NCBI GenBank assembly: GCA_017640485.1
Contig: JAEPQP010000012.1
Location: 1 to 36,944 of the forward strand
Length of the DNA stretch: 36,944 bases
Direction of reading: 5' to 3'
Source of the DNA: Phycisphaerales bacterium
Lineage (GTDB): Bacteria > Planctomycetota > Phycisphaerae > Phycisphaerales > UBA1924
The notes under the pieces were generated by a model that worked only from the letters and a program-made list of their open reading frames with translations, was not told where the DNA came from and made no database searches. Both the position numbers and the translations under genes were made by a program. How positions within the stretch are numbered: position 1 is the stretch's first letter; each line of letters begins with the position of its first letter. This document shows, one piece after another, positions 791 through 33,113 of this stretch.

Positions 791-3700
791 ATGAGCAGCA
801 CGATTGATCCCGATCCCCAGATCCTCGAAGCGAATCTCCGAGCGATCGCCGTTCGCTCACCCAGAGCCGCGCAGCGGATCATGGAAGCAGCGCCGACCCA
901 AACGGTCGAGTTCATCGAATCACCATCGGGTGACATCGTGGGGATCCTCGACGGGCGCGCACTGGGTTCCAAGCGCAATCCGATGCGCGAAGCGATAACC
1001 TGGGCGCAGCAGCACTCGCCGCAGGATGCGGGATTCCTGGGTGTCATCGGGTTCGCGATGGGACACCATCTCCGCGCCCTCCACCAATCGCACGGCAAGC
1101 ACTCCGTGCTGCTGTGCTTCGAGCCCGATCTTGGATTGCTCCGAGCCGTGCTCGAACGCATCGATCACAGCGACTGGATCAACGAATCGATCTTCCTGCT
1201 CGCAACCGATGCGAGCGACGCGTCGGAACTGACGCAACTGCTCAACCACGCCGAAGCATTCCTCGCGACCGGAGTCGAGCTCGCACCGCATCCGCCGAGC
1301 AAGCATCGATTGGGAGAGCGCGCTGGTGAGTTCTCGTCCACGCTCCTCGATGTCGTCCGCTCGACGCGCACGCACCTCGTGACTGTGCTGGCGCACTCTG
1401 GATTTACGCTCCGCAACATCCTGATGAACGCGGGTCTCTACGCGACGCGCGCCGGGATCGAATCATTGAAGGACACCTGCAAGGACCGCACCGCGATCCT
1501 GATCTCCGCCGGACCGAGTCTTGAGCGCAACCTGCACCTGCTCGAAGACCAGAGCATCCGGGATCGAGCGGTCATCATCGCGGTCCAGACGATGCTCAAG
1601 CCGCTGCTCAAGCGCGGGATCAAGCCGCACTTTATCACCGCGCTCGATCACCACGAGATCAGCAAACGCTTCTACGAGGGACTCACTCCAGAGGATGTCG
1701 AGGGAGTCCGATTGGTGATGGAACCCAAAGCCAACGCCGCGATCGCTCAAGCGTTCCCCGGCGAGATCCTCTGCACACAAGAACAACAACTCGACAACAT
1801 CCTCGGCGACGAACTCATCAGACCGATGGGCAAACTCCCAGCGGGCGCGACGGTCGCGCATCTCAACTACTACCTCGCGCGACATCTGGGATGCTCAAAG
1901 ATCATCCTCATCGGACAGGATCTTGGATTCACCGACGGGCAGTACTACTCCAGCGGCGCCTCGATCCACAGCGTCTGGGCCGGGGAACTCTCCGAGCATC
2001 GCACGCTCGAGATGTTCGAGTGGGAACGCATCGCGCGGATGAAGAATCTGCTCCGTGCCAAGCGCGATATCCACGGCCGACAGATCTTCACCGACGAACA
2101 GATGTCCACCTACATCGCGCAGTTCGAAGCGGACTTCAAACAAGACCAAGAATCCGACCCCGACCTCCGCATCATCAACGCAACCGAAGGCGGGGTGCAG
2201 ATCGCGTACATGCAGCCGCTCCCGCTCTCAGCCGCGATCGATCAGTGCATCGACGATCGCCCGATCGAGATCCCCGAAACACAGCACCTGGTCGTCGACG
2301 ACGAGCAGCGACGGATCAAAGTCAGAGCGCGATTCACGCTGGTGCTCAAGCAACTCGAATCCATCGCGCGAAACTCACCCAAAACGCTCGATCTCATCAG
2401 CAGCGCGCTCGAGAAGCCCGACGATGAGCGTCACATCGACCGCTGCATCAGCAAGATTCATGTCATCCGCGACGATGTCATGGCCAGCGAGCCCGGGTTC
2501 GGGCTGGTCAACTTCATCAACCAGAAGGGCGGGCTCGATCGCTTCAAGGTCGATCGGCTCATCGCACTCGAAACCGATCTCACCCAAACACAGCGCCAGA
2601 TCAAACAACTCGAACGCGACGCGAACAACATCCGCTGGATCGAGTCCTCAGTGAAAGAAGTCCAGAACCTGATGGAGCGCTCACTCGCGGTTTTCGAATG
2701 CACCGCGCAGCCGATGACCCGTGACGAGTTCGCAGACGAGTCGGATCTCGAAAGCAACCCAGTCTCGACCTCCGCATCGCCGCGCCGTGTCGAAGCGGTG
2801 ATCTTTGCAGACCCCGAACTTGGACCGCTCGGACAACCCCGCGATCTGTCGCGACCGATCCATCGCGGGCTCAACGCACTGGAACTGACCACCAAACGAA
2901 TCGCATCATCCAACCAACTCGACGGCATCACCATCATCTCAACGGATCCCGATCGGATCAGCGCCATGACGCTCGGAGATGGGAATCTCCCGATCCGGAT
3001 CGTCCGCGCTGATCCCCAAACCCTTCGTGCCCGCGCGCTCAGTATCGGGAAAGCCCGCGCCGCATCAAGCGACTGCTGGCGCGGCTCAATCGCATCGCTC
3101 GGATGCTACGACGAGTCGCTCGACCCACAAACGCTCGAGTCCGTCATGGACCAGCATTCCATCGACGCGGCCGCAATCGTCGGCAGCGATTGGGCGATGG
3201 TCGACCCCGCACTGGTCGATCAGATCGTCGCGCGCCATCGCGCCGATCCGGATCATTGCCACATCCCGTTCTCGCAAGCCGTTCCCGGACTCGGATGCTG
3301 CGTGCTCGATCGCGGTGCCGTCGGCTCGCTCTCAACAGCGGCGCAGCGCGCCAGCGCGTTCGGATCCATCGGCGCGATGCTCAGCTACATCCCGATCGGT
3401 CCTCAGGGAGATCCGATCGCGTCGCCGTTGTGCGTCGGGATCGATCCCTTCATTCGTGACGCGGGGATCCGTGTCATCGCGGATTCTCCCATCCGCGCCA
3501 GAGCAATGAGCGCCGTGTATCAAGGTCTCGGCGATTTCGCGATGGCCGCGGAAACCACCGTCCTCCTCCGCGCTTACCTCAACGAACTCGACGCGCTCCA
3601 GCAGCGTGTCCCCGAGCGCATCGAGCTCGAACTCACCACCCAGAGTCTCGCGCAGGGAGAGTGGTCCATCATGCGTCCGCGTCCAGATTCACCCATCACG

Positions 3701-4441
3701 ATGGATCAGCAGCCCGCCAACGCACTCATGACTCAAGCGCACGCGCTCAACACTGAATGTTCACTGCTGCTCGCAGGACGGGGTGATCCGCTGATGCACC
3801 AGCAGGTCATGCCGATCATCGAGCACGCTTCAACCCTCGGCATCATGAGCACCGAACTCCGCACCAATCTCCTCGATATGGTCACTAACTCCACCCACAC
3901 TCCGCAACAGATTCTCAACTCCGGGATCAGCATCCTCAGCGTGGACCTGCTCGCCAACACGCCGCAGCTGCATCAGCACATGACCGGTTCACCCAAGTTT
4001 GAAGCGGTCCTCGACACGATGCAGTCACTCTTTACCACGCGATCACAGTCCGCTCAATCTCCGCTCCCAACGCCTTGGATCGTCCCGCGCCTGACCCGCT
4101 GCGACGCGGTCTACAACGACCTGCTCGGGTTCTACGACCGCTGGCTCTCCGTCTGCGGCTGCGCAATCATCGATCCCCCAACACCGACCACCCCGGGCCG
4201 GATCAAATCACTCCGAGTTCCCGATCATCGCGCCAAGCAGATGAGCGCCCGCACGCTCCGCATCGCCGCCGATGGTCAGGTGGTCGATGAACACCACCAA
4301 CCGATCGAATCAGACAGGCCAATCAACGCGATCGAGCTCGGGATCGAAGAAGCGTACCGACAGATGCGATCGGCGCTCGAGTCCTCATCGACCGTGCACT
4401 CTGAACCCAAACCACTCCATCAGCAGGTGGTCACCCAATGA
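791..4441 (+). CDS. Maf-like (DUF115) glycosyltransferase fused to nucleotidyltransferase-like and degenerate radical-SAM/SPASM-like domains
   Basis: A 1216-residue protein. Residues ~80-500 look like a motility-associated-factor glycosyltransferase of the DUF115/MptE-like family: a Rossmann-like start (LLCFEPDLG, 107-115), then AILISAGPSLE (235-245), FITALDHHE (281-289) and ILIGQDLGFTDG (372-383). Known Maf proteins transfer nonulosonic acids from CMP donors to flagellin Ser/Thr. Residues ~500-640 are helical. Residues ~664-905 resemble SpsF/CMP-KDO-synthetase-type nucleotidyltransferases. Residues ~940-1195 follow a radical-SAM/SPASM plan (LELTT at 946-950, AGRGDPLMH at 995-1003, GISILSVD at 1045-1052, DGQVVDEHH at 1161-1169), but the cluster-binding cysteines are absent. 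The next gene, a CMP-sugar synthetase, overlaps its stop by ATGA, which supports a role in nonulosonate transfer. The reading frame is continuous. Maf part sure; the other two domains moderately sure. Confidence 0.88.
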   Translation: MSSTIDPDPQILEANLRAIAVRSPRAAQRIMEAAPTQTVEFIESPSGDIVGILDGRALGSKRNPMREAITWAQQHSPQDAGFLGVIGFAMGHHLRALHQSHGKHSVLLCFEPDLGLLRAVLERIDHSDWINESIFLLATDASDASELTQLLNHAEAFLATGVELAPHPPSKHRLGERAGEFSSTLLDVVRSTRTHLVTVLAHSGFTLRNILMNAGLYATRAGIESLKDTCKDRTAILISAGPSLERNLHLLEDQSIRDRAVIIAVQTMLKPLLKRGIKPHFITALDHHEISKRFYEGLTPEDVEGVRLVMEPKANAAIAQAFPGEILCTQEQQLDNILGDELIRPMGKLPAGATVAHLNYYLARHLGCSKIILIGQDLGFTDGQYYSSGASIHSVWAGELSEHRTLEMFEWERIARMKNLLRAKRDIHGRQIFTDEQMSTYIAQFEADFKQDQESDPDLRIINATEGGVQIAYMQPLPLSAAIDQCIDDRPIEIPETQHLVVDDEQRRIKVRARFTLVLKQLESIARNSPKTLDLISSALEKPDDERHIDRCISKIHVIRDDVMASEPGFGLVNFINQKGGLDRFKVDRLIALETDLTQTQRQIKQLERDANNIRWIESSVKEVQNLMERSLAVFECTAQPMTRDEFADESDLESNPVSTSASPRRVEAVIFADPELGPLGQPRDLSRPIHRGLNALELTTKRIASSNQLDGITIISTDPDRISAMTLGDGNLPIRIVRADPQTLRARALSIGKARAASSDCWRGSIASLGCYDESLDPQTLESVMDQHSIDAAAIVGSDWAMVDPALVDQIVARHRADPDHCHIPFSQAVPGLGCCVLDRGAVGSLSTAAQRASAFGSIGAMLSYIPIGPQGDPIASPLCVGIDPFIRDAGIRVIADSPIRARAMSAVYQGLGDFAMAAETTVLLRAYLNELDALQQRVPERIELELTTQSLAQGEWSIMRPRPDSPITMDQQPANALMTQAHALNTECSLLLAGRGDPLMHQQVMPIIEHASTLGIMSTELRTNLLDMVTNSTHTPQQILNSGISILSVDLLANTPQLHQHMTGSPKFEAVLDTMQSLFTTRSQSAQSPLPTPWIVPRLTRCDAVYNDLLGFYDRWLSVCGCAIIDPPTPTTPGRIKSLRVPDHRAKQMSARTLRIAADGQVVDEHHQPIESDRPINAIELGIEEAYRQMRSALESSSTVHSEPKPLHQQVVTQ

Positions 4442-5181
4442 CCCATCGCTCACGCAACGCCACCGCGATCATCCTTGCGCGAGGGGGATCCAAAGGACTC
4501 CCAGGAAAGAACCACGCGCTCGTCGCCGGACAACCCTGTGTCCAGTGGACGATCGACGCCGCGAAACAGGCGCACACCATCGCGCAGATCGTCGTTTCTT
4601 CAGACGATCCCGAAGTTCTTGAGATCAGCAACCAGAACGGATGCACCAGCATCGAGCGACCAGCGGATCTCGCGCACGACACCGCGACCATCGACGACGC
4701 GGCCCGCCACGCGTATCAGCAGATCGGATCACCCGACACCCCCATCGTAATCCTGTATGCGAATGTCCCCGTGCGTCCAGACACGCTCATCGACGACGCG
4801 GTCAACCTGCTCGTCGAGTCCCGCGCCCACAGCGTCCAGTCGTACGCGCGCGTCGGAAAGCACCACCCCTGGTGGACCGTCAAACTCACCGACGAGAACA
4901 ATGTCCTGCCTTGGGAGGGTGACACCCTCTACCACAACTGCTTCCGCAGACAAGATCTCCCACCCGCACACATCCCCGATGGAGGGGTCATCGCACTCAC
5001 CCCCGACGCGCTCATGCTCCGCACCAACGCGCCGTCCGGACCCCACCAGTTCCTCGGCACCGACCGGCGCGGGATCGAAACCCAAGAGGGCGATGTCATC
5101 GACATCGACTCACGCATCGACCTCTTGGTCGCCGATGCGATCCTCTCCGAGAAAGCCGCATCCCATATCAGCCAACCATGA
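4438..5181 (+). CDS. neuA: NeuA-type acylneuraminate/nonulosonate cytidylyltransferase
   Basis: A 247-residue enzyme expected to join CTP to a nonulosonic acid (sialic, legionaminic or pseudaminic type), giving the CMP-activated sugar used by glycosyltransferases. The N-terminal nucleotide-binding motif is clear: IILARGGSKGLPGKN at residues 11-25, with the Arg and Lys typical of the family. It is followed by a VVSSDDPEVL stretch (the usual SsD) and a C-terminal DIDSRIDLLVADAIL segment matching the conserved Asp-containing end of these synthetases. Length is normal. The start ATG overlaps the stop of the Maf fusion (ATGA, 4438-4441), indicating translational coupling and probably a shared glycan. 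Which nonulosonate is the substrate cannot be read from the sequence. Confidence 0.9.
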   Translation: MTHRSRNATAIILARGGSKGLPGKNHALVAGQPCVQWTIDAAKQAHTIAQIVVSSDDPEVLEISNQNGCTSIERPADLAHDTATIDDAARHAYQQIGSPDTPIVILYANVPVRPDTLIDDAVNLLVESRAHSVQSYARVGKHHPWWTVKLTDENNVLPWEGDTLYHNCFRRQDLPPAHIPDGGVIALTPDALMLRTNAPSGPHQFLGTDRRGIETQEGDVIDIDSRIDLLVADAILSEKAASHISQP

Positions 5182-5558
5182 TCACTGTTTCATTCATCCT
5201 TGCTGCGTACACAGCGATCATCGCATTGATCCACACCTTCGCAGGCGGCCGAGCGATCGCAAAGCCGCTGATCAGTGATCAACGGATCGAACCAGCGGTC
5301 GTCTGGACCATGTACGCGTGTTGGCACATAGTCACGCTCCTGCTCTTCATGATCGCGATCGCGCACCTCGTGCTTGCGCTCAGCAGCAACGCGTACCCCG
5401 GGCTCGCGTGGATGCTCACGGCACTGCACACGAGCTTTGTTCTGGTCTTCGTCGCAATCGGGATCCGCTGCAAGGGTCTGATCTCGATCACACCGCAGTG
5501 GACCCTGTTCCTCCCTTCGACGATCGCATCGCTGATTGTCTCAATGAGTCTCCCATGA
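5178..5558 (+). CDS. Small four-helix membrane protein between neuA and neuB
   Basis: A 126-residue hydrophobic protein with four likely transmembrane helices (about residues 4-22, 42-68, 73-95 and 105-124). I do not recognise the family. Charged residues fall mainly in the first loop (residues ~23-40), which contains a small Gly/Arg-rich segment. Its start overlaps the neuA stop (ATGA, 5178-5181) and its stop overlaps the neuB start (ATGA, 5555-5558), so it is translated as part of the same coupled operon and is very unlikely to be a chance reading frame. Its place between two cytoplasmic nonulosonate enzymes suggests a membrane anchor or transport-related part for that pathway, but this is inferred from position alone. 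Confidence 0.8.
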   Translation: MITVSFILAAYTAIIALIHTFAGGRAIAKPLISDQRIEPAVVWTMYACWHIVTLLLFMIAIAHLVLALSSNAYPGLAWMLTALHTSFVLVFVAIGIRCKGLISITPQWTLFLPSTIASLIVSMSLP

Positions 5559-6742
5559 AGATTGGCAATCGCGAAATCGGTCTCAACCACCCGCCGTATA
5601 TCATCGCCGAGATCGGGGTCAACCACGACGGCGATGTCGAGCGGGCGCTCCAGCTCACCGACGCCGCCGCGGACGCAAACGCGGACGCGGTCAAGCTCCA
5701 GTTCTTCGAGACCGACCGCTTGATGAGCAAAGCAGCCAAACTCGCGGCGTACCAAAAGAACGCCGGAGAAACCGACCCGATCGAGATGCTCCGCAGACTC
5801 GAACTGAATATTGACGAGATGGCTCAAGTCGTCGAGCGAGCACACACCAAAGGCATCCACGCGATCGTGACGGTGTTCAGCACCGAACTCGTCGAGATCG
5901 CGGAGACCCTCCCCTGGGACGCGTACAAAACCGCGAGTCCTGACATTATGAATAAGCCGCTGCTTGAAGCGTTGATGCACACCAGCAAACCGATGATCGT
6001 GAGCACAGGCGCGAGTACAACGGATGAGGTCGTGCAAGCTGTGGGTTGGCTCGAAACGGCACGCAATCGACTCGCGGTCTTGCAGTGCGTGAGTTCATAC
6101 CCTGCACCAGATCCTGCCCTGGGAGGAATGAGAGTGTTACAAAGGCAACTAGATTTGCCGATAGGGTATAGCGATCACACAAAGACACATAAATCAGGAA
6201 GACTTGCGGTGGCATTTGGTGCGTGTGTGCTCGAAAAACACATCACAGACAACCGAAATAGATCGGGTCCAGATCATTTAGCATCACTACTCGACGCACA
6301 TTTTGCTGAATACATTAAGCTTGCAAATGAAGGGTTGGAGTGGAGGGAAGCTGTTGATCGTGCATTTGAGAACAATGTCCATTTGATCGAGAGTGGAAAA
6401 GAACTCAAGGAGTATGCGTTCTCTGATGCTGAACCGGGAAATGGACACCCAGCTTGGTACGGTATTCATGCCGCGTTCAATAGTAAGCTTACCAAACAAG
6501 TTCTCGACTGCGAGCAAGATGTCCGCACCGTCTCCCGCCAATCCGTCGTATCCACAACCGACATCCCCGAGGGCACCACGATCACCCGCGACATGCTCAC
6601 CATCAAAAGACCAGGCACCGGCATCCTCGCGTGCGATCTCGAATCCGTCATCGGATGCACAACCGCACAACCAATCGAAGCCGATGTCCCGATCAACGCA
6701 GCGGACCTGGTTCAGTTCGAAACATCGATGGCGCGCCTGTAG
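5555..6742 (+). CDS. neuB: NeuB-type nonulosonate (sialic/legionaminic/pseudaminic acid) synthase
   Basis: A 395-residue synthase that condenses phosphoenolpyruvate with a six-carbon amino sugar to form a nine-carbon nonulosonic acid. The TIM-barrel part starts with IIAEIGVNHDGD (residues 16-27) and AVKLQFFETD (45-54), and carries LQCVSSYPAP and the family signature GYSDHT, then LEKHIT. The C-terminal ~65 residues form an SAF/antifreeze-like domain (SRQSVVSTTDIPEGTTI...KRPGTGI). The reading frame is open further upstream to 5318, but the ATG at 5555, overlapping the preceding stop and placed just before the conserved barrel start, is clearly the right start. The central part (about 6110-6490) has lower GC and rare codons (TTA, TTG, AGA, AGG) unlike both ends. 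Its 3' end overlaps the convergent HIT gene by 31 bases. Enzymes for the amino-sugar precursor (NeuC, LegB/C or PseB/C types) are not in this window. Confidence 0.92.
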   Translation: MKIGNREIGLNHPPYIIAEIGVNHDGDVERALQLTDAAADANADAVKLQFFETDRLMSKAAKLAAYQKNAGETDPIEMLRRLELNIDEMAQVVERAHTKGIHAIVTVFSTELVEIAETLPWDAYKTASPDIMNKPLLEALMHTSKPMIVSTGASTTDEVVQAVGWLETARNRLAVLQCVSSYPAPDPALGGMRVLQRQLDLPIGYSDHTKTHKSGRLAVAFGACVLEKHITDNRNRSGPDHLASLLDAHFAEYIKLANEGLEWREAVDRAFENNVHLIESGKELKEYAFSDAEPGNGHPAWYGIHAAFNSKLTKQVLDCEQDVRTVSRQSVVSTTDIPEGTTITRDMLTIKRPGTGILACDLESVIGCTTAQPIEADVPINAADLVQFETSMARL

Positions 6743-10069: not shown

Positions 10070-10750
10070 ATGAAGTACACCATGATCGCGATGACCGCGG
10101 CGGCGATCGCCTCGGCAGCTGGTGCTGACACCCTCGACTTCTCGGATCTGAACCACGGCGACGTGGTCTCAGATCAGTACGCAGGTCTCGGAGTCAACAT
10201 CTCCACAGTCAACTTTGATGACCCAGCAAACCCAAACCTCGGTGTTATCTTCGACACCTCGCTCAGCGGCACCGCTGACGGCGACCTCGAAGACCCGTTC
10301 AGCCTCGGAAACACCGACCTGAACACCGACCTCGGGAACATCCTCATCATCTCCGAAGACGGCTCACCGAACGATGAAGGCAGCCGCCCTGCAGGCACCA
10401 TCACCTTCACCTTCGACATGCTCGTCGAGTCCTTCGGCTTCCATGTCGTTGACCTCGAAAGCGAAACCATCGAAGAGAGCTCACTCGATTTCTACCGTGA
10501 CGGATCACTCGTTGAAACCGTCGACTTCGAAGAGTTCCTCGCAGGCGGAGACTACGACAACGGCGTCATCTTCGGTAACAACTCCATCAACCTCATCAAC
10601 GAGTTCACCGTCGACGGCGGATACGACGAACTCGTGATCAACGTCGGCGGCTCCATGGGCTTCGACAACATCACCTACACCATCCCAGCTCCGGGTGCAC
10701 TCGCACTCATCGGCCTGGGCGCAGCAGTCGGCATCCGCCGCCGCCGCTAA
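10070..10750 (+). CDS. Secreted PEP-CTERM-like protein
   Basis: A 226-residue secreted protein. The N-terminus is a signal peptide (MKYTMIAMTAAAIASAAGA, cut near residue 19). The mature part is acidic and rich in Asp, Gly, Asn and Thr, fitting a beta-sandwich without catalytic motifs. The C-terminus has the three-part sorting signal: PAPGALALIGLG, a hydrophobic helix and a run of four arginines. PEP-CTERM proteins are processed by an exosortase at the membrane and usually end up on the surface or in the extracellular matrix. Here the motif is PAP rather than PEP. A purine-rich GAGAGAG stretch before the ATG can serve as ribosome binding site. A good terminator follows. Confidence 0.85.
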   Translation: MKYTMIAMTAAAIASAAGADTLDFSDLNHGDVVSDQYAGLGVNISTVNFDDPANPNLGVIFDTSLSGTADGDLEDPFSLGNTDLNTDLGNILIISEDGSPNDEGSRPAGTITFTFDMLVESFGFHVVDLESETIEESSLDFYRDGSLVETVDFEEFLAGGDYDNGVIFGNNSINLINEFTVDGGYDELVINVGGSMGFDNITYTIPAPGALALIGLGAAVGIRRRR

Positions 10751-17785: not shown

Positions 17786-18077
17786 ATCTTCCCTTTCTAG
17801 GTTCGTTGAGCCATGTTCATCTCATGGCTTCGAATAGAGCACGCTCCAGAATCCAGTTCCCGAAGTGTGCAGCCTCCGCACAGAATCCAACTCATTCGGC
17901 CCAAACAATGGGTGCTTCTGTGCCCAGAGTGTGTTATATCGCGCCATCAACATAGTTGCAAGGAAGTTTCTCTGAAACTACAAAGAAATTGTGTGCATTT
18001 CCGTAAATGTGGGCGTATACTCCAGAAACGGCCATAATCCCGTTCAAAAAATCAGCGACCTGACCGAGTAGTTTCCC
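17786..18077. promoter_or_regulatory. Divergent intergenic region with a palindrome
   Basis: The 292-base gap separates the PEP-CTERM-like gene (minus) from the helix-turn-helix protein gene (plus). It contains an inverted repeat AGCCATG/CATGGCT (17809-17815, 17823-17829) close to the start of the minus-strand gene, a TATACT at 18016-18021 that could be a -10 for the plus-strand gene (no -35 at proper distance), and a TCCAGAAACG (18021-18030) like the motifs in the cysD/cysC gap. It is AT-richer than its neighbours. Confidence 0.35.
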
Positions 18078-19355
18078 ATGCACACGCCCAACCCCGACGC
18101 ACACCCCCAAGCGTCCACCCAGCAGACCCAGACCCAGACCCAGCCGCACACGATGGGCAGTCTCGAGGTCCGCATCAACTCCGCCGGAGAAGACCTCCTC
18201 GAAGGATTGGGTCGCGTGCTCTCTCAGATCCCAGATACCGATGCCGGACCTCAACAACTCGCCAAAGCACTCGGCATCGACAAGGTCCTCGCATCACGCA
18301 TCCTCAAAGCACTCCGCGCCCCGGATCCGATGTCCGTCGTTCACCGCGTTCCGGGACCCGAGCCTATGCGCCGTCTCCTCAAAGCCTCTTCCAAACTCGG
18401 CGTCGATCCTCAGGACCTCAGCAACGCCAACTCCGCCGTCGATCGTTTCGAAACCCTCATCCGCAACGAGATCGGCGACCGCAGCGCGCTCGAAGCGATC
18501 CTCAGCGCCTGGGTCCCCGAAGCACGCCGGGAGTTCGAGCTGCGAAGAAAACAAGCCGCGTTCCGCGCGATGTCGCAGCTCAAGGGTGCGCAAGCCGATG
18601 TCTACGCCGAAGCCGCAATCTTCTATCCCAGCGATGATGATGAGCACATCGATGTCGTCTGGATCAAAGCCGTGATCGGGCTCCACCGACTCCGCCCAGG
18701 GGTCCGCGTCAAGTTCACCTCACACCGACAAATCGAGGACCACTCCAAACGCAAAACCTACACACTCTCCGGAGACCCCGTCGATTCCGTCTCCAGCGCC
18801 ACCCTCAAAGACTACTGCTCCACCCCAACCCCCGAGCTCGATGTCCATCACGGCGGGGAGCTCATGCACTACATGCTCAAGGACCTCGCGTTCGGCGCGT
18901 CCTCCTCAGTCGATCTCGTGACCTGCGAAGTCAACCGCGCCGAGATCCCGCGCTACATCCCCGATTCCAAAAACCGCAAGGCATGGGCATCGAGCGACAT
19001 CAACATCCCCTCCAAAAAAATGCAGTTCGATGTGCTCGTCCACCAAGACCTCTACAACCGCTCATTCCCAGAACTCAAGATCTACGACACCACCATCAAC
19101 GGCCAAGCCGACATCAACGACCCGTCCCGCGACATGGACCAACTCGATCTCCTCGAATCCATCGAAAACCTCGGCACCGGAACCACACGATTCGGATCAT
19201 CACTCGTTCCGAAGTACCGCAAAATGATCGAAGAAGTCTGTGCCACCCTCAACTTCGATCCAAACACACTCCGCGGATACCGCTGCACCGCAGACTACCC
19301 CATCCACGGCTCACAAACCGCGATGATCTTCTCTACACAAGACCGCCCGCAGTAA
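18078..19355 (+). CDS. Unrecognised 425-residue protein with predicted N-terminal helix-turn-helix
   Basis: I cannot assign a family. The first ~25 residues are polar and contain a QTQTQTQ repeat. Residues ~56-95 (GPQQLAKALGIDKVLASRILKALRAPDPMSVVHRVPG) read like a winged-helix DNA-binding domain of the IclR/MarR-like kind, and 98-160 are helical. The rest, with many charged residues and strand-like segments, has no catalytic pattern that I recognise and no signal peptide or membrane segment, so the protein should be cytoplasmic. A possible role is a transcriptional regulator with a large ligand-binding part. An internal ATG at 18153 would remove the QT repeat and is an alternative start; neither has a clear ribosome binding site. 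Codon use matches the neighbours. Confidence 0.75.
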   Translation: MHTPNPDAHPQASTQQTQTQTQPHTMGSLEVRINSAGEDLLEGLGRVLSQIPDTDAGPQQLAKALGIDKVLASRILKALRAPDPMSVVHRVPGPEPMRRLLKASSKLGVDPQDLSNANSAVDRFETLIRNEIGDRSALEAILSAWVPEARREFELRRKQAAFRAMSQLKGAQADVYAEAAIFYPSDDDEHIDVVWIKAVIGLHRLRPGVRVKFTSHRQIEDHSKRKTYTLSGDPVDSVSSATLKDYCSTPTPELDVHHGGELMHYMLKDLAFGASSSVDLVTCEVNRAEIPRYIPDSKNRKAWASSDINIPSKKMQFDVLVHQDLYNRSFPELKIYDTTINGQADINDPSRDMDQLDLLESIENLGTGTTRFGSSLVPKYRKMIEEVCATLNFDPNTLRGYRCTADYPIHGSQTAMIFSTQDRPQ

Positions 19356-19388
19356 TTCCGTTCGACCAAATACTCAATCAGCCAAGCC

Positions 19389-20672
19389 TCAATCCGTCTT
19401 CGGATACACGCCCGCATCCTCACCCGCCGCACGGATAACTTCTGCGTACTGCGCCGAACAGATCTGCCGCGTGTAGCGCCGCTCAAACAGCGCCCGCGCC
19501 TGGACCCCCATCTCCTCAGTCTTCGCAGCGTCCGCCATCAACGCACGGATGCCGCTCGCAAGACTTTCCGAATCCCCAAGCCCCGCCCAGATCCCGCAGT
19601 CTGCGTCCTCGACGATCGACCGCAGTTCTGAGTCCTCTTCCGAGATCGCGACAATCGCTTTCCCAGTCGCGAGCGAGGTGTACAACTTGCTCGGGAAACT
19701 AATCCCCTCGATCCCCTCCGCGATCGTCACCAGCGACGCATCGCACGCATTGAGCGAATCGTTGAGTGTCTCAAACGGACGGTACGGCAGCACGACCGTA
19801 TTGCTCAGCCCGCGCGCCTTCACCTGTTCTTCGCACCATGCCTTCTTGCCGCCGCCTCCGACAAGCACCAAACGGAACGCTTCGTCTTTCAAGAGTTCCG
19901 CGGCGCCGAGGATCGTATCGAAGTCGTAATACAGCCCCATATTCCCCGAGTACAACAGCGTGAACGGCTCAACACAGTCCAGCTCTTTCGCAAAGTCCGT
20001 CTCGGCTTTCGCTACCGGATAAATCTTCTCACCGTCGGCCCAGTTCGGGATCACCGCGATGTCGGAATCGGGAACCGCGTACTCGTCTTGCAACAGCTTC
20101 GACGCGGCGCTGCACAGCACGATTTTCCGCTTCGCGCCGTTGTAGATCCTCCGGTTCATCCAGTGCCAGGCGCGTTCGATGAACCCACCCTTCTTGAAGG
20201 TCCCGACCCACACCCCGACCTGCGGATACGAATCATACAACAGCGTGCAGAAGGTCTGTCTCCTGAGAATCCGTGCGATCACCCCGACCAGCGCGCCATA
20301 CGGCGGCGCGGTTGTGTATACAAACACCTTCCCCTTCTGCATCCCAAAGACAGACCGCAACCCGAGCTGGATCATGTACACGCCGTCCTTGATCGCGCGT
20401 CCCGCGAGCACATTCTTGCTCAGTCTGGGCGCCCACACCCGCTTGAAGGTCACATGCCCATCGCGCTCCACACGCGGGCAATCCACCCAGCTGTCCTTGT
20501 CGCCGTAGCTCGGCTGCGTCGTGAGCACCTCGACCTCAAACCCGTGATTCTCCGCGAGCTCGTGCGCCAGGATATGGATCAGGTGCCCCGTCGATGCGAC
20601 ATCCGGATAACAGTACTGGTTCACAAGCACCACAACCGGTCTCTGACTTTCGGCTTGTGCAGAAATGCCCAT
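19389..20672 (-). CDS. Family 4 glycosyltransferase (WcaI/WbuB-like)
   Basis: A 427-residue GT-B glycosyltransferase. The N-terminal half has VVLVNQYCYPDVASTGHLIHILAHELAE and VLTTQPSY, typical of the group that includes the colanic-acid enzyme WcaI and L-fucosamine transferase WbuB. The C-terminal half has FTLLYSGNMGLYYDFDTIL, LVLVGGGGKK and ISFPSKLYTSLATGKAIVAI. The start is set at the ATG 20672, because GAGGAG lies eight bases ahead; an in-frame TTG at 20690 would place that site inside the gene. Expected role: assembly of a polysaccharide repeat unit on the cytoplasmic side. It diverges from the acetyltransferase operon at 20933. Confidence 0.9.
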   Translation of the reverse strand: MGISAQAESQRPVVVLVNQYCYPDVASTGHLIHILAHELAENHGFEVEVLTTQPSYGDKDSWVDCPRVERDGHVTFKRVWAPRLSKNVLAGRAIKDGVYMIQLGLRSVFGMQKGKVFVYTTAPPYGALVGVIARILRRQTFCTLLYDSYPQVGVWVGTFKKGGFIERAWHWMNRRIYNGAKRKIVLCSAASKLLQDEYAVPDSDIAVIPNWADGEKIYPVAKAETDFAKELDCVEPFTLLYSGNMGLYYDFDTILGAAELLKDEAFRLVLVGGGGKKAWCEEQVKARGLSNTVVLPYRPFETLNDSLNACDASLVTIAEGIEGISFPSKLYTSLATGKAIVAISEEDSELRSIVEDADCGIWAGLGDSESLASGIRALMADAAKTEEMGVQARALFERRYTRQICSAQYAEVIRAAGEDAGVYPKTD

Positions 20673-20865
20673 TACCGTGACTCCTCGCAAACAATGCGGT
20701 ACAAGGCAGTTCTGGACACTTCACATTCGATCATCTCAAGATCCTCTCCCAAATCTCAAATAGCTTGCTCGGATGCGACACTATCGGCGTTCAATACCGT
20801 CCAATGAACACAATAACCCGATATGAAACCAACGGATACGACTCGTCGGACTCGTGAACTTTAGC

Positions 20866-20894
20866 TTGACCGGTCTCGTAGATAGGTCGATAGT
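20866..20894 (+). promoter_or_regulatory. Candidate promoter of the WcaF-GT2-GT4-acyltransferase operon
   Basis: TTGACC (20866-20871, five of six matches) and GATAGT (20889-20894, four of six) with an exact 17-base spacer, placing the transcript start near 20901 and leaving a ~30-base leader before the ATG at 20933. Confidence 0.5.
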
Positions 20895-20932
20895 AGAACG
20901 AGTCAATCCAAAAACAGTTCAGCGCACCACTC

Positions 20933-21568
20933 ATGAGCACCAATCAACCAACATCCGAACCCGGTTATCCGGACCAAAGTCTTCCAACTGGAGCGGTCGA
21001 TCTCGAGAGTGCACCGAGTCCGCACAGCTTGAAAAACAAGCTCATGCGTGCACTCTGGGGAGTTGTCCAAGCAACCGTCTTCCGATGGAGCCCAAACCCG
21101 ATGCACGCGTGGAGAGCCTTCCTGCTCCGTCTCTTCGGAGCACAGGTGTCAAAGAAAGCCCGTGTCTATCCCAAAGCAAAGATCTGGGGTCCTTGGAATC
21201 TTCACATGGATGACTACTCCACGCTCGCAAACGATGTCGATTGTTATTGTGTTGACAAAATCTCTATCGGACGACAAACGACGATCTCACAATACTCCTA
21301 CCTCTGCGGCGCCACCCACGATTTCACCCACCCGAAGCAACCGCTTACCCCGTTCCCGATCACCATCGGTGCCGATGTCTGGGTAGCTGCTGATGTCTTT
21401 GTTGCTCCAGGGGTAACCATTGCCGACGGCGTCGTAGTCGGCGCTCGATCAAGCGTATTCAAAGACCTCCCAGAATGGACAGTCTGCGTCGGCTCACCGG
21501 CCAAGCCCAAAGGTCCGCGTATGATGAAGACCCCCAACCAAGACGAATCTCAAAGCACAGGAAAGTAA
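20933..21568 (+). CDS. WcaF-type hexapeptide-repeat acetyltransferase
   Basis: A 211-residue left-handed beta-helix acetyltransferase similar to the putative colanic-acid acetyltransferase WcaF. The segment LMRALWGVVQATVFRWSP and FLLRLFGAQVSKKARVYPKAKIWGPWNL precede the hexapeptide coils. The probable catalytic histidine sits in CGATHDFTHP (His129), and the C-terminal coils carry IGADVWVAADVFVAPGVTIADGVVVGARSSV. It would add an acetyl group from acetyl-CoA to a sugar of the exopolysaccharide. The first ~30 residues are a low-complexity, poorly conserved extension. It leads a four-gene operon with the GT2 gene four bases downstream. Confidence 0.9.
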   Translation: MSTNQPTSEPGYPDQSLPTGAVDLESAPSPHSLKNKLMRALWGVVQATVFRWSPNPMHAWRAFLLRLFGAQVSKKARVYPKAKIWGPWNLHMDDYSTLANDVDCYCVDKISIGRQTTISQYSYLCGATHDFTHPKQPLTPFPITIGADVWVAADVFVAPGVTIADGVVVGARSSVFKDLPEWTVCVGSPAKPKGPRMMKTPNQDESQSTGK

Positions 21569-21572
21569 TCCC

Positions 21573-22451
21573 ATGAGCGTATCTGTCATGATCATGACCC
21601 TCAACGAAGAGCAGAACCTCCCGGGTGCACTCGAAAGCCTGAAGTGGTGCGACGATGTCGTCGTATTTGATTCATACTCGACCGATAGCACTACGGAGAT
21701 CGCCGAGCAGTACGGCGCCCGGGTCGTGAAAAGAAAGTTTGATTCGTTCGGGCCTCATCAGACATGGGGAATCAAGGAGATCGAATACAAACACCGCTGG
21801 GTATTTATGCTCGATGCTGATGAACGCATGACACCGTCACTCCAGCAAGAGCTTGAATCCATCGCAGCCAAGTGGGAGTCCGGTGAACACACTGCCGATA
21901 AAGACCCGGTCGCGTATTACTGTGGTCGCCGGAACTACTTCCGAGGCAAGTGGATCAAGCATGCAATGCCTCCAGGGAACAACATGCGTTTCTTCCAGCC
22001 ACCACTCATCCGTTTCGAGCGAGAAGTCCACCAGGTCCCAGTCGTCGATGGATCAGTCGGGTACATGAAAGGTATGTTCGAGCACTTCAACTTCTCAAAG
22101 GGAATCGGTGAATGGTTCAACAGACACAACCGATACGCAACGATGGAAGCGAATGAAACCATCATCGCGCTCAAAGAAAAACCGGTCAAGTTCTCCAATC
22201 TGTTTTCCAAGGATCGAAACACACGCCGCCTCGAGATGAAAAATATCTCGTTCAGGCTCCCGTTTAGACCCTTTATCAAGTTCCTTTATATGTACATCCT
22301 GAAACTCGGTTTCCTCGACGGGCACCCAGGACTGACATACTGCACCATCCTCTCGGTCTACGAATACCTCATCGTGCTTAAAGTCCGCGAGATCAATCGC
22401 CCCGACCTAACCGCCGCAGATCGGGGCGAAGGCCCCGCGTTGAAGAACTAA
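21573..22451 (+). CDS. Family 2 glycosyltransferase (WaaE/KdtX-like)
   Basis: A 292-residue GT-A fold glycosyltransferase. It starts with VSVMIMTLNEEQNLPGALES, followed by DDVVVFDSYSTDST (residues 27-40) and the metal-binding DAD at 81-83 in VFMLDADER. The sequence YMKGMFEHFNFSKGIGEWFNRHNRYA matches the conserved C-terminal segment of the WaaE/KdtX-like subgroup, which adds glucose or related sugars to lipid-linked glycans. AGGAAAG a few bases before the ATG serves as ribosome binding site. Acceptor unknown. Confidence 0.9.
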   Translation: MSVSVMIMTLNEEQNLPGALESLKWCDDVVVFDSYSTDSTTEIAEQYGARVVKRKFDSFGPHQTWGIKEIEYKHRWVFMLDADERMTPSLQQELESIAAKWESGEHTADKDPVAYYCGRRNYFRGKWIKHAMPPGNNMRFFQPPLIRFEREVHQVPVVDGSVGYMKGMFEHFNFSKGIGEWFNRHNRYATMEANETIIALKEKPVKFSNLFSKDRNTRRLEMKNISFRLPFRPFIKFLYMYILKLGFLDGHPGLTYCTILSVYEYLIVLKVREINRPDLTAADRGEGPALKN

Positions 22452-22486
22452 GCACTCAATCACATCTTGAATCCGAGTAACGAATC

Positions 22487-23701
22487 ATGACCCCGGACAC
22501 TAATGCACAACCCAAGCGCGTCGCGGTCATCTATCATTATTTCGCGCACTATCGCCAGCCCGTCTTGCTTCAACTCCTCGAGCACGGCCGTCACCACTAT
22601 GAGTTCCTCGCCAATGATCACAGCTACGACACCGGAATAAAGCTCACCGACCGGATCCCAGACGAGCGATTCCACAAAGTGGCCGGAAAGTTTCTCGGCC
22701 CGTTCTTGTTCCAGTTCGGCGCCGTCAAAGCCGCACTCGGTAGCCGCTACGACACACTCATCATGCTCGGGAACCCCACCTGGCCAACCACTTGGCTCGC
22801 AGCGATACTCGGAAGAATCCGAGGAAAGCAGATCCTATTCTGGACTCACGGCTGGCTCAAAGAAGAATCAGGAACCAAAGCACTCTTCAGGACAACATTC
22901 AACAAACTTGCTCACGGCCTCCTGCTGTATGGACACCGTGCCAAAGATCTCGCCATCAAAGCAGGCATCAAGCCCGAACGACTCCATGTCATCTACAACT
23001 CGCTTGATTGTGAACTCCAAGATGAAGCACGCGCTCGAATACAACCAACCGATCGTGTAGAAACACGCAATAAACTCTTCGCTGAGCACGCTGATCGTCC
23101 GGTACTCATCAATATCACACGACTCCAACCACATAAACGCCTCGACCTCCTCATTGATGCCGCTGCGATACTCAAGGAACAAGGCAAACCAGTCAATGTG
23201 CTCATTGTTGGTGATGGAGAAGAAAGACAAGCTCTCGAACAGCGCGCTCAAGAGCAAGATGTGACCGCGGTCTTTACCGGCGCACTCTATGAAGAATACG
23301 AAATTGGTTGCATGCTCAATGCAGCAGACATCGCCGTCATGCCAGGACCTGTTGGCCTGCTTGTCATGCACGCCCTCGCCTACGGCGTACCAGTGATCAC
23401 AAACAACAACTTTGATACCCAGATGCCAGAGTTTGAAGCTATCAAACAAGGATTGACAGGTGATTTCTTCACTCTCGAGGATCTCGATTCTTTGGTTGCG
23501 TCCATTCAACGCACACTTGACTCAACAACTACATACGAGCAGCGTTACACCCAAGCGCGTGAGCCGATCGATCATCGGTACAATCCGATATCACAACGCA
23601 TCCTTATCGAACGCGCTATAGACGGACTACCAGCTGATGACAGCTTCAACGCTGCACTCCCCAGCTACCAACTCAGCATACAAAGCGAGGGATCAACATG
23701 A
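22487..23701 (+). CDS. Family 4 glycosyltransferase
   Basis: A 404-residue GT-B enzyme. The N-terminal half begins with VAVIYHYFAHYRQPVLLQLLE, which marks the group acting early on extracellular polysaccharide, and includes ILFWTHGWLKEE. The donor half has VLINITRLQPHKRLDLLIDAA, VLIVGDGEERQAL and MLNAADIAVMPGPVGLLVMHALAYGVPVI. The usual E-x7-E glutamates are partly replaced in that segment (PVGLLVMHAL), so the retaining mechanism may use different contacts. Codon use is less GC-biased than in the sulfate genes. The stop overlaps the next start (ATGA, 23698-23701). Confidence 0.88.
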   Translation: MTPDTNAQPKRVAVIYHYFAHYRQPVLLQLLEHGRHHYEFLANDHSYDTGIKLTDRIPDERFHKVAGKFLGPFLFQFGAVKAALGSRYDTLIMLGNPTWPTTWLAAILGRIRGKQILFWTHGWLKEESGTKALFRTTFNKLAHGLLLYGHRAKDLAIKAGIKPERLHVIYNSLDCELQDEARARIQPTDRVETRNKLFAEHADRPVLINITRLQPHKRLDLLIDAAAILKEQGKPVNVLIVGDGEERQALEQRAQEQDVTAVFTGALYEEYEIGCMLNAADIAVMPGPVGLLVMHALAYGVPVITNNNFDTQMPEFEAIKQGLTGDFFTLEDLDSLVASIQRTLDSTTTYEQRYTQAREPIDHRYNPISQRILIERAIDGLPADDSFNAALPSYQLSIQSEGST

Positions 23702-24276
23702 TCAATGCCATCAAGGATCAACTCCGAAAGACCACAAAGCTCCGCCTTGCAATCCGATCCGCCCTCATGTCCTACCGGCGCACTAGATACGGCCTCAACA
23801 ATGTCCACTCGACCTTCTATTCCGAAGACTGCAAAAGACTCAGCCGTGATCTAATCGCGCATGAATACTCATTCTGCGGCCCAGAATGTGTCATCGGACC
23901 CAAAGTCGAACTCGGTGCGTATGTCATGCTCGGACCACGCGTCATGATCGTCGGCGATGATCACCTCTTCGATAAACCGGGTGTCCCGACAATTTTCTCA
24001 GGACGACCCGCCAAACGCGAAACCAAAATCGAGCGAGATGCCTGGCTCGGCGCCGGCTCCATCATCATGGCAGGGGTCACTGTCGGACGCGGCTCAATCG
24101 TTGCCGCTGGAGCAATCGTGACCAAGGACATCCCCGCCTACGAAATCCATGCCGGAGTTCCGGCAAAGAAAATCAAAGATCGATTCGAAAACGAGGAAGA
24201 TCGCAAAGCACACGAGACAATGCTCAACAAAGAACCGTTCATGGGTGAGTTCTGTCAGCCACTCGAAACGCGCTAA
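23698..24276 (+). CDS. Hexapeptide-repeat acyltransferase
   Basis: A 192-residue left-handed beta-helix acyltransferase. The repeats are visible from CVIGPKVELGAYVMLGPRVMIVGDDH (probable catalytic His89) through IERDAWLGAGSIIMAGVTVGRGSIVAAGAIVTKDIPAYEIHAGVPAKKIKDRF, the common closing motif of sugar O-acetyltransferases. It is coupled to the preceding GT4 gene and is the second acyltransferase of this block, so the polysaccharide may carry two different acyl groups, or the same group at two positions. Confidence 0.88.
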   Translation: MINAIKDQLRKTTKLRLAIRSALMSYRRTRYGLNNVHSTFYSEDCKRLSRDLIAHEYSFCGPECVIGPKVELGAYVMLGPRVMIVGDDHLFDKPGVPTIFSGRPAKRETKIERDAWLGAGSIIMAGVTVGRGSIVAAGAIVTKDIPAYEIHAGVPAKKIKDRFENEEDRKAHETMLNKEPFMGEFCQPLETR

Positions 24277-24315
24277 AGAAACTTCAACCAATCAAGATCA
24301 CCGAAGCAGATCTTC

Positions 24316-25695
24316 TTAAAGAGCTCCAACCGATTGGTATTCCTCGTCAGCGTACTCCGCGTATTCAGGCTCATACACCTCTTCGCCGGCATCCGCGAGT
24401 TCCGCGATACGAGTGTAATACAACTTCGAAAGAATCAAGTACGCATAAAACGGGAGGGGAAGCACAAGGTACGACCCCTGCTTCATCGAAATCAGCGTGA
24501 CATACCCCGAGATCGCCAGCACAATCGCGACCGCATGCCGTTCGATTATTCCCGAATGCACCATGCGAAGAAGCTTATAGGTGTGAATCCCACTCACTAA
24601 AATGATGAGTAACAGGAGCCCAAAGCCGATCAATCCATGATCAGCCAGAATCTCTACAAACAGATTGTGCGGATACGAAAACCCTTCACCGCTACCAGCC
24701 TCGACGAAAAGATTGAACGAACCAGTCCCCATTCCTTGCAGGTACTGACCGGGTTTGGAGAAGTACTCTCCGAGCAGTGTTTTCGCGTAATACATACGAG
24801 AATCTACGCCACTCGTAAGACTCTCCCCTGAGAATCGCTCGCTCGCCTCAGAGCTGAACAAGAACCTCTTCGCAACAAACAACATGATTGCCGCCATTGT
24901 TCCGAGCATCCCAGCACGAATGAAGAACTGCTTCGCGTTCCGGATCTGATACGCGACCGGGAAGAACATCACCGCGACCAAGATCGAGAAGATCAACTGC
25001 CCTCGCGATGCCGAGAAGAAGCAAATAGTGATCCCAAGAATGATCCCTCCAACGCGCAGCGCCGCGATGACCAGACTCTTGCTGGTCTGACGCATGAGAG
25101 CCCCGATGATGACCATGATCCCACCGATCTCTGCGATTGCTAGCGGATTGCCCTTCTCGCCTGCGCCCATCGTATAACTCAAGTCGAGATACATCCGAGA
25201 GCCCGAAAACTCAGCACGCGGACTTAGCAAGACCATCACCACAAGCGCGCAGCCCGCTAGTAAATAGGGGGTACACATCCGGTTGATGACCTCGGTCCCA
25301 GTCACAAGACAAGGCAGCACGCCGAGCAGCAAAACCATATACGGAAAGCCAGTTCTCACAAAGTGCGCGCCAGCATTCTGTGTTCCTCCATAAAACATCC
25401 CGAGATACGAGAACACAATCAGCGCAAAGACCAGAAAACTATTGGGATTGAATGCTCCACGAAACGGTCGCTTCCCCGAAGTAAGAGCCATTCCCACCGC
25501 CGTGAGTGAAATGAGCCCGACTGATACATTAATCAGCCAAGGCTTCGAAGCAAGAATCCCCATGCTTGTCGACAACAACTGCTCATACCCAAAGAAACAA
25601 AACAGCAACACCAAAGTCCAGTGACGCTTAAAGACCGCAAGCAGCGACATCCCTCCGAATACGAGCAGCGCAAGAGCATTGAGTGCAGCAACCAT
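24316..25695 (-). CDS. O-antigen ligase/polymerase (Wzy/WaaL-like) membrane protein
   Basis: A 459-residue protein with about ten to twelve transmembrane helices. It has the hallmarks of the Wzy_C/O-antigen-ligase family: SASRGQ at residues 228-233, and YPHNLFVEILADHGLIG at 341-357 at the end of a large periplasmic loop. Such proteins polymerise lipid-linked repeat units or attach finished glycan to an acceptor. The C-terminus is a highly acidic, Tyr-rich tail (EEVYEPEYAEYADEEYQ). It lies 38 bases downstream of the EEP-fold gene on the same strand, probably one transcript, and is convergent with the acyltransferase operon. Confidence 0.88.
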   Translation of the reverse strand: MVAALNALALLVFGGMSLLAVFKRHWTLVLLFCFFGYEQLLSTSMGILASKPWLINVSVGLISLTAVGMALTSGKRPFRGAFNPNSFLVFALIVFSYLGMFYGGTQNAGAHFVRTGFPYMVLLLGVLPCLVTGTEVINRMCTPYLLAGCALVVMVLLSPRAEFSGSRMYLDLSYTMGAGEKGNPLAIAEIGGIMVIIGALMRQTSKSLVIAALRVGGIILGITICFFSASRGQLIFSILVAVMFFPVAYQIRNAKQFFIRAGMLGTMAAIMLFVAKRFLFSSEASERFSGESLTSGVDSRMYYAKTLLGEYFSKPGQYLQGMGTGSFNLFVEAGSGEGFSYPHNLFVEILADHGLIGFGLLLLIILVSGIHTYKLLRMVHSGIIERHAVAIVLAISGYVTLISMKQGSYLVLPLPFYAYLILSKLYYTRIAELADAGEEVYEPEYAEYADEEYQSVGAL

Positions 25696-25733
25696 AAAAA
25701 AGCATCCTATTCAAACTTCTCAAAACCCGAAGA

Positions 25734-26750
25734 TCAATCAACCATCAAGCCTGCACGCACACCTCGATGATCCGATCCAGGGATAACAAACGTGGACCAC
25801 GATACCCCTTCCACCGAGTCGTTTACCCAAATATCGTCAATTAACAACCCAAACATCGACATCTTCGCGGGGAAAGTGCTCTTTGGACCCAACACCCATG
25901 ATGTCCTCTGGACACCAAGCGTGCCCCGCAATGCCCGATCACGCCCTGTCATCGGGCCCGCATTGAGATCGCCCACGATCAACAGTGGTAGATTATCACG
26001 ATGATTCAAGGCAACCAATCTTGCTATGAGCTCGTCCACAACACGATTCCCAAGATTCCACCGCTCAGGAGTTCTCGGAGAATGAGCATACAGGCCAACA
26101 AGTCGAAATGATCCGCCAAGAGACTCTGGACGAAGAATCACAACGCTCAGCCCCAACCATGGATCCACAGACTCATCGCGAACAACCTCCCATCGGCTGA
26201 GAATCAGCATCGGAGAAACCCCCATCCCATCCCGCCGACGCACTACGCGATGCGGATATCGATCCAATCGATCATCCGAATCCTTCAGCCGATCAAAGAC
26301 ATCCCACTGCGGCTCAATAAGTACCACCACATCGTCATCCAGTGATTCCAATAGCCTCATCAAGCCCTCGGGATCATCGTTCGACATCTTGAGGTTCATC
26401 CCGACAACAGAAATATAACCCGTGTTGGGATCTTCCGCATCAACCCCAGTCGGCAGCACCCGCCGCCCGTTCATACACATCAGCAGCACACTCAAACACA
26501 CCACCGCAACACCAACCGACCCCCACGATCGAACCGCCGCCAATCGAACCAGTGAACACGCCGCCAGCAGCACCCCAAGATGCACACTCCCATTGAGCAG
26601 CACATCCCCGATCCACCAACGCACCCCAGCCAGATACACCACCCACCACCCAGCCGCAGACAACAACAGCGCCCCCACCAACACCCGCCCGGCTCTGCCG
26701 CGGCTCTGTGCCCTCTGCTCAACCTGTGGAGTCTCTGATTCCATATTCAT
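25734..26750 (-). CDS. Membrane-anchored endonuclease/exonuclease/phosphatase-fold hydrolase
   Basis: A 338-residue protein with three N-terminal transmembrane helices (about residues 22-45, 50-72 and 76-95) and a C-terminal EEP domain. The catalytic set is visible: GMNLKM (Asn119), VVLIEPQ (Glu146), YAHSP (His223), GDLNAGP (Asp261, Asn263), LIDDIW (Asp305/306) and GSDHRGV (Asp327-His328). This layout is found in YafD-like proteins, whose substrate is unknown; nuclease, phosphodiesterase and sphingomyelinase activities all occur in the fold. Start uncertain: ATG at 26750, ATG at 26744 or a GTG at 26792 are all possible; the first is chosen since the upstream extension is unconserved. It precedes the Wzy-like gene. 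Confidence 0.82.
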   Translation of the reverse strand: MNMESETPQVEQRAQSRGRAGRVLVGALLLSAAGWWVVYLAGVRWWIGDVLLNGSVHLGVLLAACSLVRLAAVRSWGSVGVAVVCLSVLLMCMNGRRVLPTGVDAEDPNTGYISVVGMNLKMSNDDPEGLMRLLESLDDDVVVLIEPQWDVFDRLKDSDDRLDRYPHRVVRRRDGMGVSPMLILSRWEVVRDESVDPWLGLSVVILRPESLGGSFRLVGLYAHSPRTPERWNLGNRVVDELIARLVALNHRDNLPLLIVGDLNAGPMTGRDRALRGTLGVQRTSWVLGPKSTFPAKMSMFGLLIDDIWVNDSVEGVSWSTFVIPGSDHRGVRAGLMVD

Positions 26751-26864
26751 CCAAACGATCACACATACGACAACCAGTCCCTCTCCCTTCACTATCGGCT
26801 GCAGCCCCCACCCACACCACTACACCCACCATCCCGCGCCAGTTCTCTCAAAAAACACAACACC

Positions 26865-26894
26865 AAAAAACAGGCGGCCCCACAAGGAACCGCC
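26865..26894 (-). terminator. Rho-independent terminator of the metalloprotease gene
   Basis: On the minus strand, the stem GGCGGTTCC/GGGGCCGCC (26886-26894 with 26873-26881, two G-U pairs, loop TTGT) is followed by TGTTTTTT. It lies 45 bases after the metalloprotease stop. Confidence 0.75.
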
Positions 26895-26938
26895 CGTGCG
26901 TAGATCAGATTGTTCAGACCAAATCAGTTCAGACCAGA

Positions 26939-31332: not shown

Positions 31333-31535
31333 GTGCACCTCGCATCGACATAACGATGCCCATTCCTCAACAGTTCACGACAGACAACATATGAATTCCC
31401 CCCAATCAACTATCATGGACACAGATCAGCCCACCGATCGCCGATCCAGCAGTGCCCGAGCATGATCGATCGAGCCGATGAACCATCCGCATCAAGGTAG
31501 TGACATACTGAGACAGGACATCAACCTAACCAGAC

Positions 31536-32954: not shown

Positions 32955-33113
32955 CCCCAACAAGATCTCACGCCGTATTCATACCCTCAGGTCAACATCA
33001 CCCCAAATCCCGCCGATGCACCCCCATCGGAGCGTACCATTCACACTCGATATCAGACCATCAAGGTCTTTCACACAGTTATCAAAGACTGCCCAACCAA
33101 GGAACCGGCACCA

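Follow-up and report, generated by a model that had tools for sequence, protein, structure and literature searches.

A gene at positions 791 to 4,441 of a 36,944-nucleotide stretch of DNA from a Phycisphaerales bacterium (assembly GCA_017640485.1, contig JAEPQP010000012.1; hereafter the window) probably encodes a flagellin nonulosonyltransferase of the Maf type into which a non-redox accessory module has been built. Computation supports this through the domains of the protein and their folds, the loss of catalytic motifs, the order of genes, the gathering of fused copies in one clade, and co-occurrence with flagellin and Maf. A preliminary description, made from the sequence alone, had proposed that a Maf glycosyltransferase, a nucleotidyltransferase-like region and a radical-SAM/SPASM-like region were combined into one polypeptide and coupled to neuA and neuB. 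Reading of the frame and its translation confirms a single open frame of 1216 codons, in which the motifs SAGPSLE, ALDHHE and GQDLGF singled out there are all present. Positions are coordinates of the whole window, and residues follow the numbering of the window protein.

Folds and families of the two halves

Sequence and model alike show the first half to be an ordinary relative of Maf, as had been proposed: PF01973 (MptE-like/DUF115) matches residues 209-382 at E 3.8e-36 (124.9 bits against a curated Pfam cut-off of 34.6), and a Foldseek search with the full-length structure model placed the Maf enzyme 5mu5 top among PDB matches (E 2.0e-17 over 735 alignment columns, template modelling (TM) score 0.50 by target). 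The NCBIfam profile for the flagellin modification protein PseD (NF050051) scores 79.1 bits against this half (E 2.9e-22) and does not reach its curated cut-off of 670; on that profile the half is a relative of PseD and not a member. Maf_flag10_N gives a further, weak match (16 bits against a Pfam cut-off of 23.5).

Residues 640-1216 have no Pfam match at E up to 1 and only a weak NCBIfam signal, for which reason the earlier reading of this half from raw sequence must be judged a good one. The signal comes from spiro-SPASM (TIGR04321), which aligns with the window protein over positions 213-408 of its 510-position model (36.2 bits, E 2.8e-9, cut-off 250). Stand-alone relatives of the second half score up to 159.2 bits, with one alignment, for example, spanning positions 75-506 at E 1.5e-46; none of the sequences tested reached the cut-off, and no genome among 149 Planctomycetota held a match above it. 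Judged by these profile matches, the second half has a named NCBI family among its relatives, while falling below the cut-off of that family. The spirochaete link of the family is taken from its name. When plasmid records were searched with a stand-alone relative as query, the radical-SAM proteins returned matched only its second half, and among the matches listed (20 of 21 records) none covered 80% of the query.

AlphaFold models were built for residues 648-1206 from 19 sequences (set A1) and for residues 1-1190 from 17 sequences (set A3), the window copy included, with L022 in neither set and A3 also lacking L009 and L020. Mean predicted local distance difference test scores (pLDDT) were 85.4 and 87.7, and predicted TM scores 0.87 and 0.84, respectively, the last of these being in line with packed domains in the full-length model. 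Foldseek searches with the second half and with the full model bore out both folds that had been named from the letters, and did not point to others: the nucleotidyltransferase-like region matches the cytidylyltransferase 6oew (E 1.0e-6, TM 0.72 by target length), and the partial TIM barrel of radical-SAM enzymes is matched by DesII (8hzv, E 4.5e-7), viperin-like proteins, SkfB, SuiB and BtrN. A profile of the cytidylyltransferase-like domain (A4) likewise finds 6oew (E 9.1e-8) and the CMP-Kdo synthetase KpsU (1gq9, E 1.1e-6). A recent duplication of neuA as the source of this domain is unsupported, a profile comparison with the neighbouring NeuA by hhalign giving only a weak, local match with a probability of 17.7 over 45 columns. 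Mean pairwise identity among fused copies is 0.48 for the Maf half and 0.63 for its MptE-like core, 0.39 for the cytidylyltransferase-like domain, 0.38 for the pseudo-radical-SAM domain and 0.29 for the former SPASM region.

Lost signatures and a conserved motif

Motifs were followed in a MAFFT alignment of 60 second halves (44 fused and 16 stand-alone, L022 kept) and in 19 further copies, the short diverged fusions L063 and L064 being examined apart. Outside both the 60 rows and the tree described below stand the copies of G042, G054, G062, G094, G154, the f4 genomes and G024, G030, G031, G032 and G036 (f1), together with the modules of L101-L103, L118 and L119, their frames having been read. 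The alignments leave out copies cut short by a contig end (L005, L014, L018, L024, L033 and L049), and a sequence present identically in two sources entered only once.

The radical-SAM motif CxxxCxxC is found in none of the 60 aligned second halves and in none of the 19 further copies, and an active radical-SAM module is rejected on that count. The SPASM cysteines tell a graded story. Among stand-alone rows all four are present in 12 of 16 and three in 2 more (14 of 16 with at least three), most of them being gone from L059 and L062 as well; among fused rows none of the four is found, at its place or within two columns of it, in 36 of 44, and at least three are found in 0 of 44. The window copy has none. 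The radical-SAM/SPASM-like region of the preliminary description therefore stands as a fold, and is not supported as a working peptide- or sugar-handling module, since the cysteines of both its motifs are absent. It is very unlikely that the domain acts on glycan or flagellin by means of an unusual cluster: the fold is that of radical-SAM enzymes including DesII and BtrN, which act on sugars, and most stand-alone copies keep the four SPASM cysteines, but no copy examined has CxxxCxxC and no fused row keeps as many as three of the four.

The cytidylyltransferase-like domain has been altered in a different manner. Judged also by the alignment with 6oew, QAR..GS..PGK is the nucleotide-binding signature of NeuA/KdsB/SpsF-type cytidylyltransferases; its AR.[GS]S core occurs within the first 80 residues of 0 of the 60 aligned second halves. 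R756, W763 and R764 are identical in 60/60 rows and G765 in 58/60, and WRG can be read as plain text in 58 of the 60 aligned copies and 15 of the 19 further ones. Sugar-nucleotide binding by this domain, as the preliminary description suggested, is possible. An active, altered nucleotidyltransferase that would make the fusion a two-step enzyme, activating or editing a sugar before transferring it, is unlikely: the fold match to 6oew, the weak match to CMP-Kdo synthetases and the resemblance of the R-W-R motif to a site speak for it, as do Asp800 and Asp805 (kept in 47/60 and 56/60 rows), but the signature core is missing throughout, as the 6oew alignment also indicates, and the gene directly behind the fusion encodes a NeuA-like synthetase as a separate protein.

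Origin of the fusion and its genomic company

In a sample of 61 genomes (the source genome and 60 related ones), the module or fusion is matched in 57: 45 carry it fused, 10 as separate genes and 2 as a short diverged fusion, and 4 have nothing. Of the fused cases, G008 and G012 hold contig-edge fragments only and G004 is cut near its end. The separate genes are those of families f5 and f6 (on two contigs in G041; as two adjacent genes in G049 and G060), and all six f4 genomes are fused. A tree of 59 second halves (43 fused, 16 stand-alone; L022 was dropped for a masked run), built by a quick method and containing several long branches and uneven composition, unites the 43 fused rows in a clade of their own with a Shimodaira-Hasegawa-like approximate likelihood ratio (SH-aLRT) support of 99 and a single change of state, the 16 stand-alone copies lying outside. 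On this topology there was probably a single fusion of two formerly separate, often adjacent genes, and the claim that separate parts have been combined into one polypeptide is right historically. That the fused frame is an artefact of assembly or a product of chance has a negligible probability: no support for it was found, the same frame recurs in many separate assemblies, and its copies form one supported clade, on which grounds an artefact is rejected.

Two genomes, G042 and G054, carry the short diverged fusions (L063, 2407-5301, and L064, 3535-6033), each a partial DUF115 region with a second half; neither genome has a flagellin match, and the 8.5-9 kb examined around them hold no neuA or neuB match. 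Perhaps these have been retargeted to another protein.

Flagellin is found in 55 of the 61 genomes, 54 of which also have the gene. The gene occurs without flagellin in G008 (56% complete), G042 and G054, flagellin without the gene in G025 (87% complete), and neither in G048, G050 and G058. Across a phylum sample of 149 Planctomycetota, a module was counted where a match to profile A2 included the cytidylyltransferase-like part, which holds for 18 of the 43 genomes with any match; TIGR04321 was not used for these counts because it also matches ordinary radical-SAM/SPASM genes and gives matches in 10 of 14 control genomes. All 18 module genomes have flagellin, against 81 of 149 overall (hypergeometric p 6.5e-6, kinship ignored). 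A Maf-like gene is present in every one of the 18 as well: the PseD profile finds it in 16 and BLAST in the other two (G040 and G071); the profile having missed those two, counts of Maf made with it are lower bounds. An acceptor other than flagellin, whether a surface or a secreted protein, is an unlikely target. The related short fusions in two genomes with no flagellin match and the further polysaccharide genes of the window would fit it; flagellin in 54 of 57 gene-bearing relatives and in every module genome of the phylum sample, and next to maf and the module in L101, argues against it.

The same company appears in the order of genes (Table 1). The stop codon of the fusion overlaps the start of neuA (ATGA at 4438), and neuB follows after a 126-residue frame, so that the proposed coupling to the two genes holds. 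The neuB open frame runs from 5318, with homology beginning near the ATG at 5555; NeuC is encoded elsewhere in the source genome and scores above its cut-off. Of 45 distinct fused copies with room downstream, 43 have neuA homology on the same strand, beginning -9 to 55 bases from where the fusion ends; L009 and L022 have no adjoining neuA, and four more copies end at a contig edge. Where the two halves are separate, maf, module and neuA follow in succession at seven adjacent two-gene loci (L054-L057 and L060-L062) from the taxonomic order of the source organism. Elsewhere in the phylum, neuA and/or neuB come after maf and module in L080, L081, L083, L086 and L088 (both of them in L080 only), and maf and module adjoin in L082 and L084. 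L101 has a flagellin gene, then maf, then the module; within a stretch of 20 kb, L099 brings together three flagellins, the fusion, neuA, neuB and a UDP-GlcNAc 2-epimerase; and L100 has flagellin and FliD at a distance of about 4-7 kb from the module. Overall, of the 14 phylum-sample genomes whose module stands alone, 9 have it next to maf.

Table 1. Features of the fused gene and of the genes directly downstream
Feature	Position	Strand	Basis or remark
Fused gene, Maf-type glycosyltransferase and spiro-SPASM-like module	791..4441	+	ATG start, 1216 residues, uninterrupted frame
Maf half, residues 1-640	791..2710	+	PF01973, NF050051 PseD, Foldseek 5mu5, model secondary structure; C-terminal part helical
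MptE-like/DUF115 core within Maf half	1415-1936	+	PF01973
Linker, residues 648-662	2732..2776	+	pLDDT < 50; mean pairwise identity 0.22 over residues 641-662
Cytidylyltransferase-like domain without QAR..GS..PGK signature, residues 663-905	2777..3505	+	Model, Foldseek 6oew, profile A4
Conserved motif R756 ... W763-R764-G765	3056..3085	+	60-row alignment
Pseudo-radical-SAM domain without CxxxCxxC, residues 941-1135	3611..4195	+	Foldseek DesII, viperin-like, SkfB, BtrN
Former SPASM region, cysteines lost, residues 1136-1216	4196..4438	+	Cysteine columns in alignment
neuA-like CMP-nonulosonate synthetase	4438..5181	+	CTP_transf_3 E 1.5e-17; PseF 81 bits, under cut-off
Hydrophobic open reading frame of 126 residues between neuA and neuB	5178..5558	+	No Pfam match
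neuB-like nonulosonate synthase with SAF domain	5555..6742	+	NeuB E 5.4e-60, SAF E 2.3e-11; NnaB 281 bits, under cut-off

The 126-residue frame shares an ATGA overlap with neuA and, by its coordinates, also overlaps the likely neuB start; in L003 the neuA and neuB frames overlap directly, with no such frame between them. At L054, L055, L061, L062 and L066, matches to neuA and neuB share one open frame of 583-813 residues that follows the module, giving the pathway another fusion. The stand-alone operon of L080 has, on the minus strand at 3690-5171 between neuA and neuB, a gene with B12-binding and Radical_SAM domains (both above Pfam cut-offs), perhaps a glycan or flagellin methylase. Further along the window, positions 10070-10750 encode a 226-residue protein with a weak PEP-CTERM tail (E 0.0038, under cut-off), and 18000-36900 form a second polysaccharide region with several glycosyltransferases, an O-antigen ligase-like Wzy_C protein, a GDP-mannose 4,6-dehydratase, hexapeptide transferases and a pyruvyl transferase.

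Proposed function and relation to known systems

From these results we infer a donor, an acceptor, a binding role for the second half and contact between the halves. With good confidence, the fusion is predicted to transfer a nonulosonate to flagellin: a cytoplasmic Maf-type O-glycosyltransferase would move a CMP (cytidine monophosphate)-activated nonulosonic acid, of the neuraminic or legionaminic type, that NeuB and NeuA, encoded behind the fusion, would make with NeuC from elsewhere in the genome. The prediction that the second half is accessory and non-catalytic is likely too, if a little less secure. The module would work by binding, and not by redox or nucleotidyl chemistry, with the cytidylyltransferase-like domain and its R-W-R motif most likely holding the CMP-sugar or the acceptor close to the active site of Maf, and with the pseudo-radical-SAM domain serving as scaffold; that the bound partner is the CMP-sugar rather than flagellin is an evenly balanced prediction. 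Ancestrally the module would have been a separate protein, probably with one SPASM iron-sulfur site, and the loss of that site after fusion suggests that the core job can be done without the cluster.

Several points weigh against the proposed flagellin nonulosonyltransferase and its non-redox module. Firstly, the structure models rest on only 17-19 sequences. Secondly, the retention of Asp800 and Asp805 leaves residual nucleotide chemistry possible, and the short diverged fusions in genomes with no flagellin match make another acceptor possible. Thirdly, WRG is absent from 4 of the 19 further copies (L101, L104, L105 and L120), all in flagellin-bearing genomes, which slightly lowers confidence both in the proposed function and in the wider role suggested below, and slightly raises the odds of another acceptor. 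Fourthly, module and maf are not adjacent in 5 of the 14 stand-alone genomes (G041, G081, G106, G124 and G127; these are drafts, in which contig breaks are possible). Finally, of the 28 phylum-sample genomes with a Maf-like gene, at least 10 show no match to the module, although the A2 scan scored at most nine candidates per genome, so that absence of the module is not firm, and 8 rows of the A2 profile derive from the same sample. As the module occurs with Maf in 18 of 18 genomes, yet 10 Maf genomes show no match to it, the module goes with Maf and Maf chemistry needs no module.

Three of the copies that lack WRG, namely L104, L105 and L120, are fused copies of genus g38 in the same family (genomes G062, G154 and G094). 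Their A2 match stops at the cytidylyltransferase-like part, leaving the radical-SAM-like part unmatched, and BLAST with the window protein extends to residues 1129-1152; the module seems to be eroding there.

Set against known systems, the first half is familiar and the second is kin to TIGR04321, and no published description of their fusion was found. The open PubMed Central (PMC) literature yielded no account of a Maf and spiro-SPASM-like combination, which agrees with the remark in the preliminary description that no system of this make-up was known, and which is no proof of absence; nor did it yield a description of the spiro-SPASM family, subscription papers being outside its scope. The Leptospira cytidylyltransferase 6oew and KpsU have the fold in common with the fusion at weak sequence similarity, and differ from it in that its nucleotide-binding signature has been replaced, with the R-W-R motif instead. 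Stand-alone relatives align over most of the spiro-SPASM model, whereas the window copy is fused to Maf, has lost its SPASM cysteines and scores below the cut-off. The domains of the Caulobacter enzyme FlmG are not known to belong to the families seen in the fusion. FlmG is described as a flagellin O-glycosyltransferase whose N-terminal flagellin-binding domain sets specificity (PMC7591256), and the likeness, one of description, is that of a modular flagellin glycosyltransferase with an added domain that confers specificity. The Maf enzymes of Magnetospirillum (5mu5), Aeromonas (Maf1) and Clostridium share with the fusion the PF01973 core, the Maf fold and the link to nonulosonates and flagellin, as far as the cited sections go (PMC4065374, PMC11339370); the fusion has in addition a further half, about 570 residues long, which in its stand-alone relatives is encoded by a gene of its own. 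Maf-dependent transfer of nonulosonate to flagellin is cytoplasmic in Aeromonas, according to the part of the Maf1 study used here (PMC4065374). How Maf enzymes choose their acceptor is described as open, with no conserved sequon known and the function of the outer Maf domains unclear, in the passages of PMC11339370 consulted.

More tentatively, and with the balance tilting somewhat against it, the spiro-SPASM-like module may be a partner of Maf in flagellin glycosylation across several Planctomycetota lineages: two retired enzyme folds used as a sugar- or flagellin-recognition device with an R-W-R site, a separate subunit in most of these lineages and fused to the transferase once. Were this true, a family on which no paper was found would gain a function, and the choice of donor or acceptor by some Maf enzymes would be explained. 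The fusion also offers a case of two enzyme folds losing their chemistry stepwise, the radical-SAM motif being gone in all copies examined and the SPASM cysteines in the fused ones. In joining Maf to a neighbour that recurs, this natural fusion ties a family with no published function found to flagellin glycosylation, and points to R756, W763 and R764.

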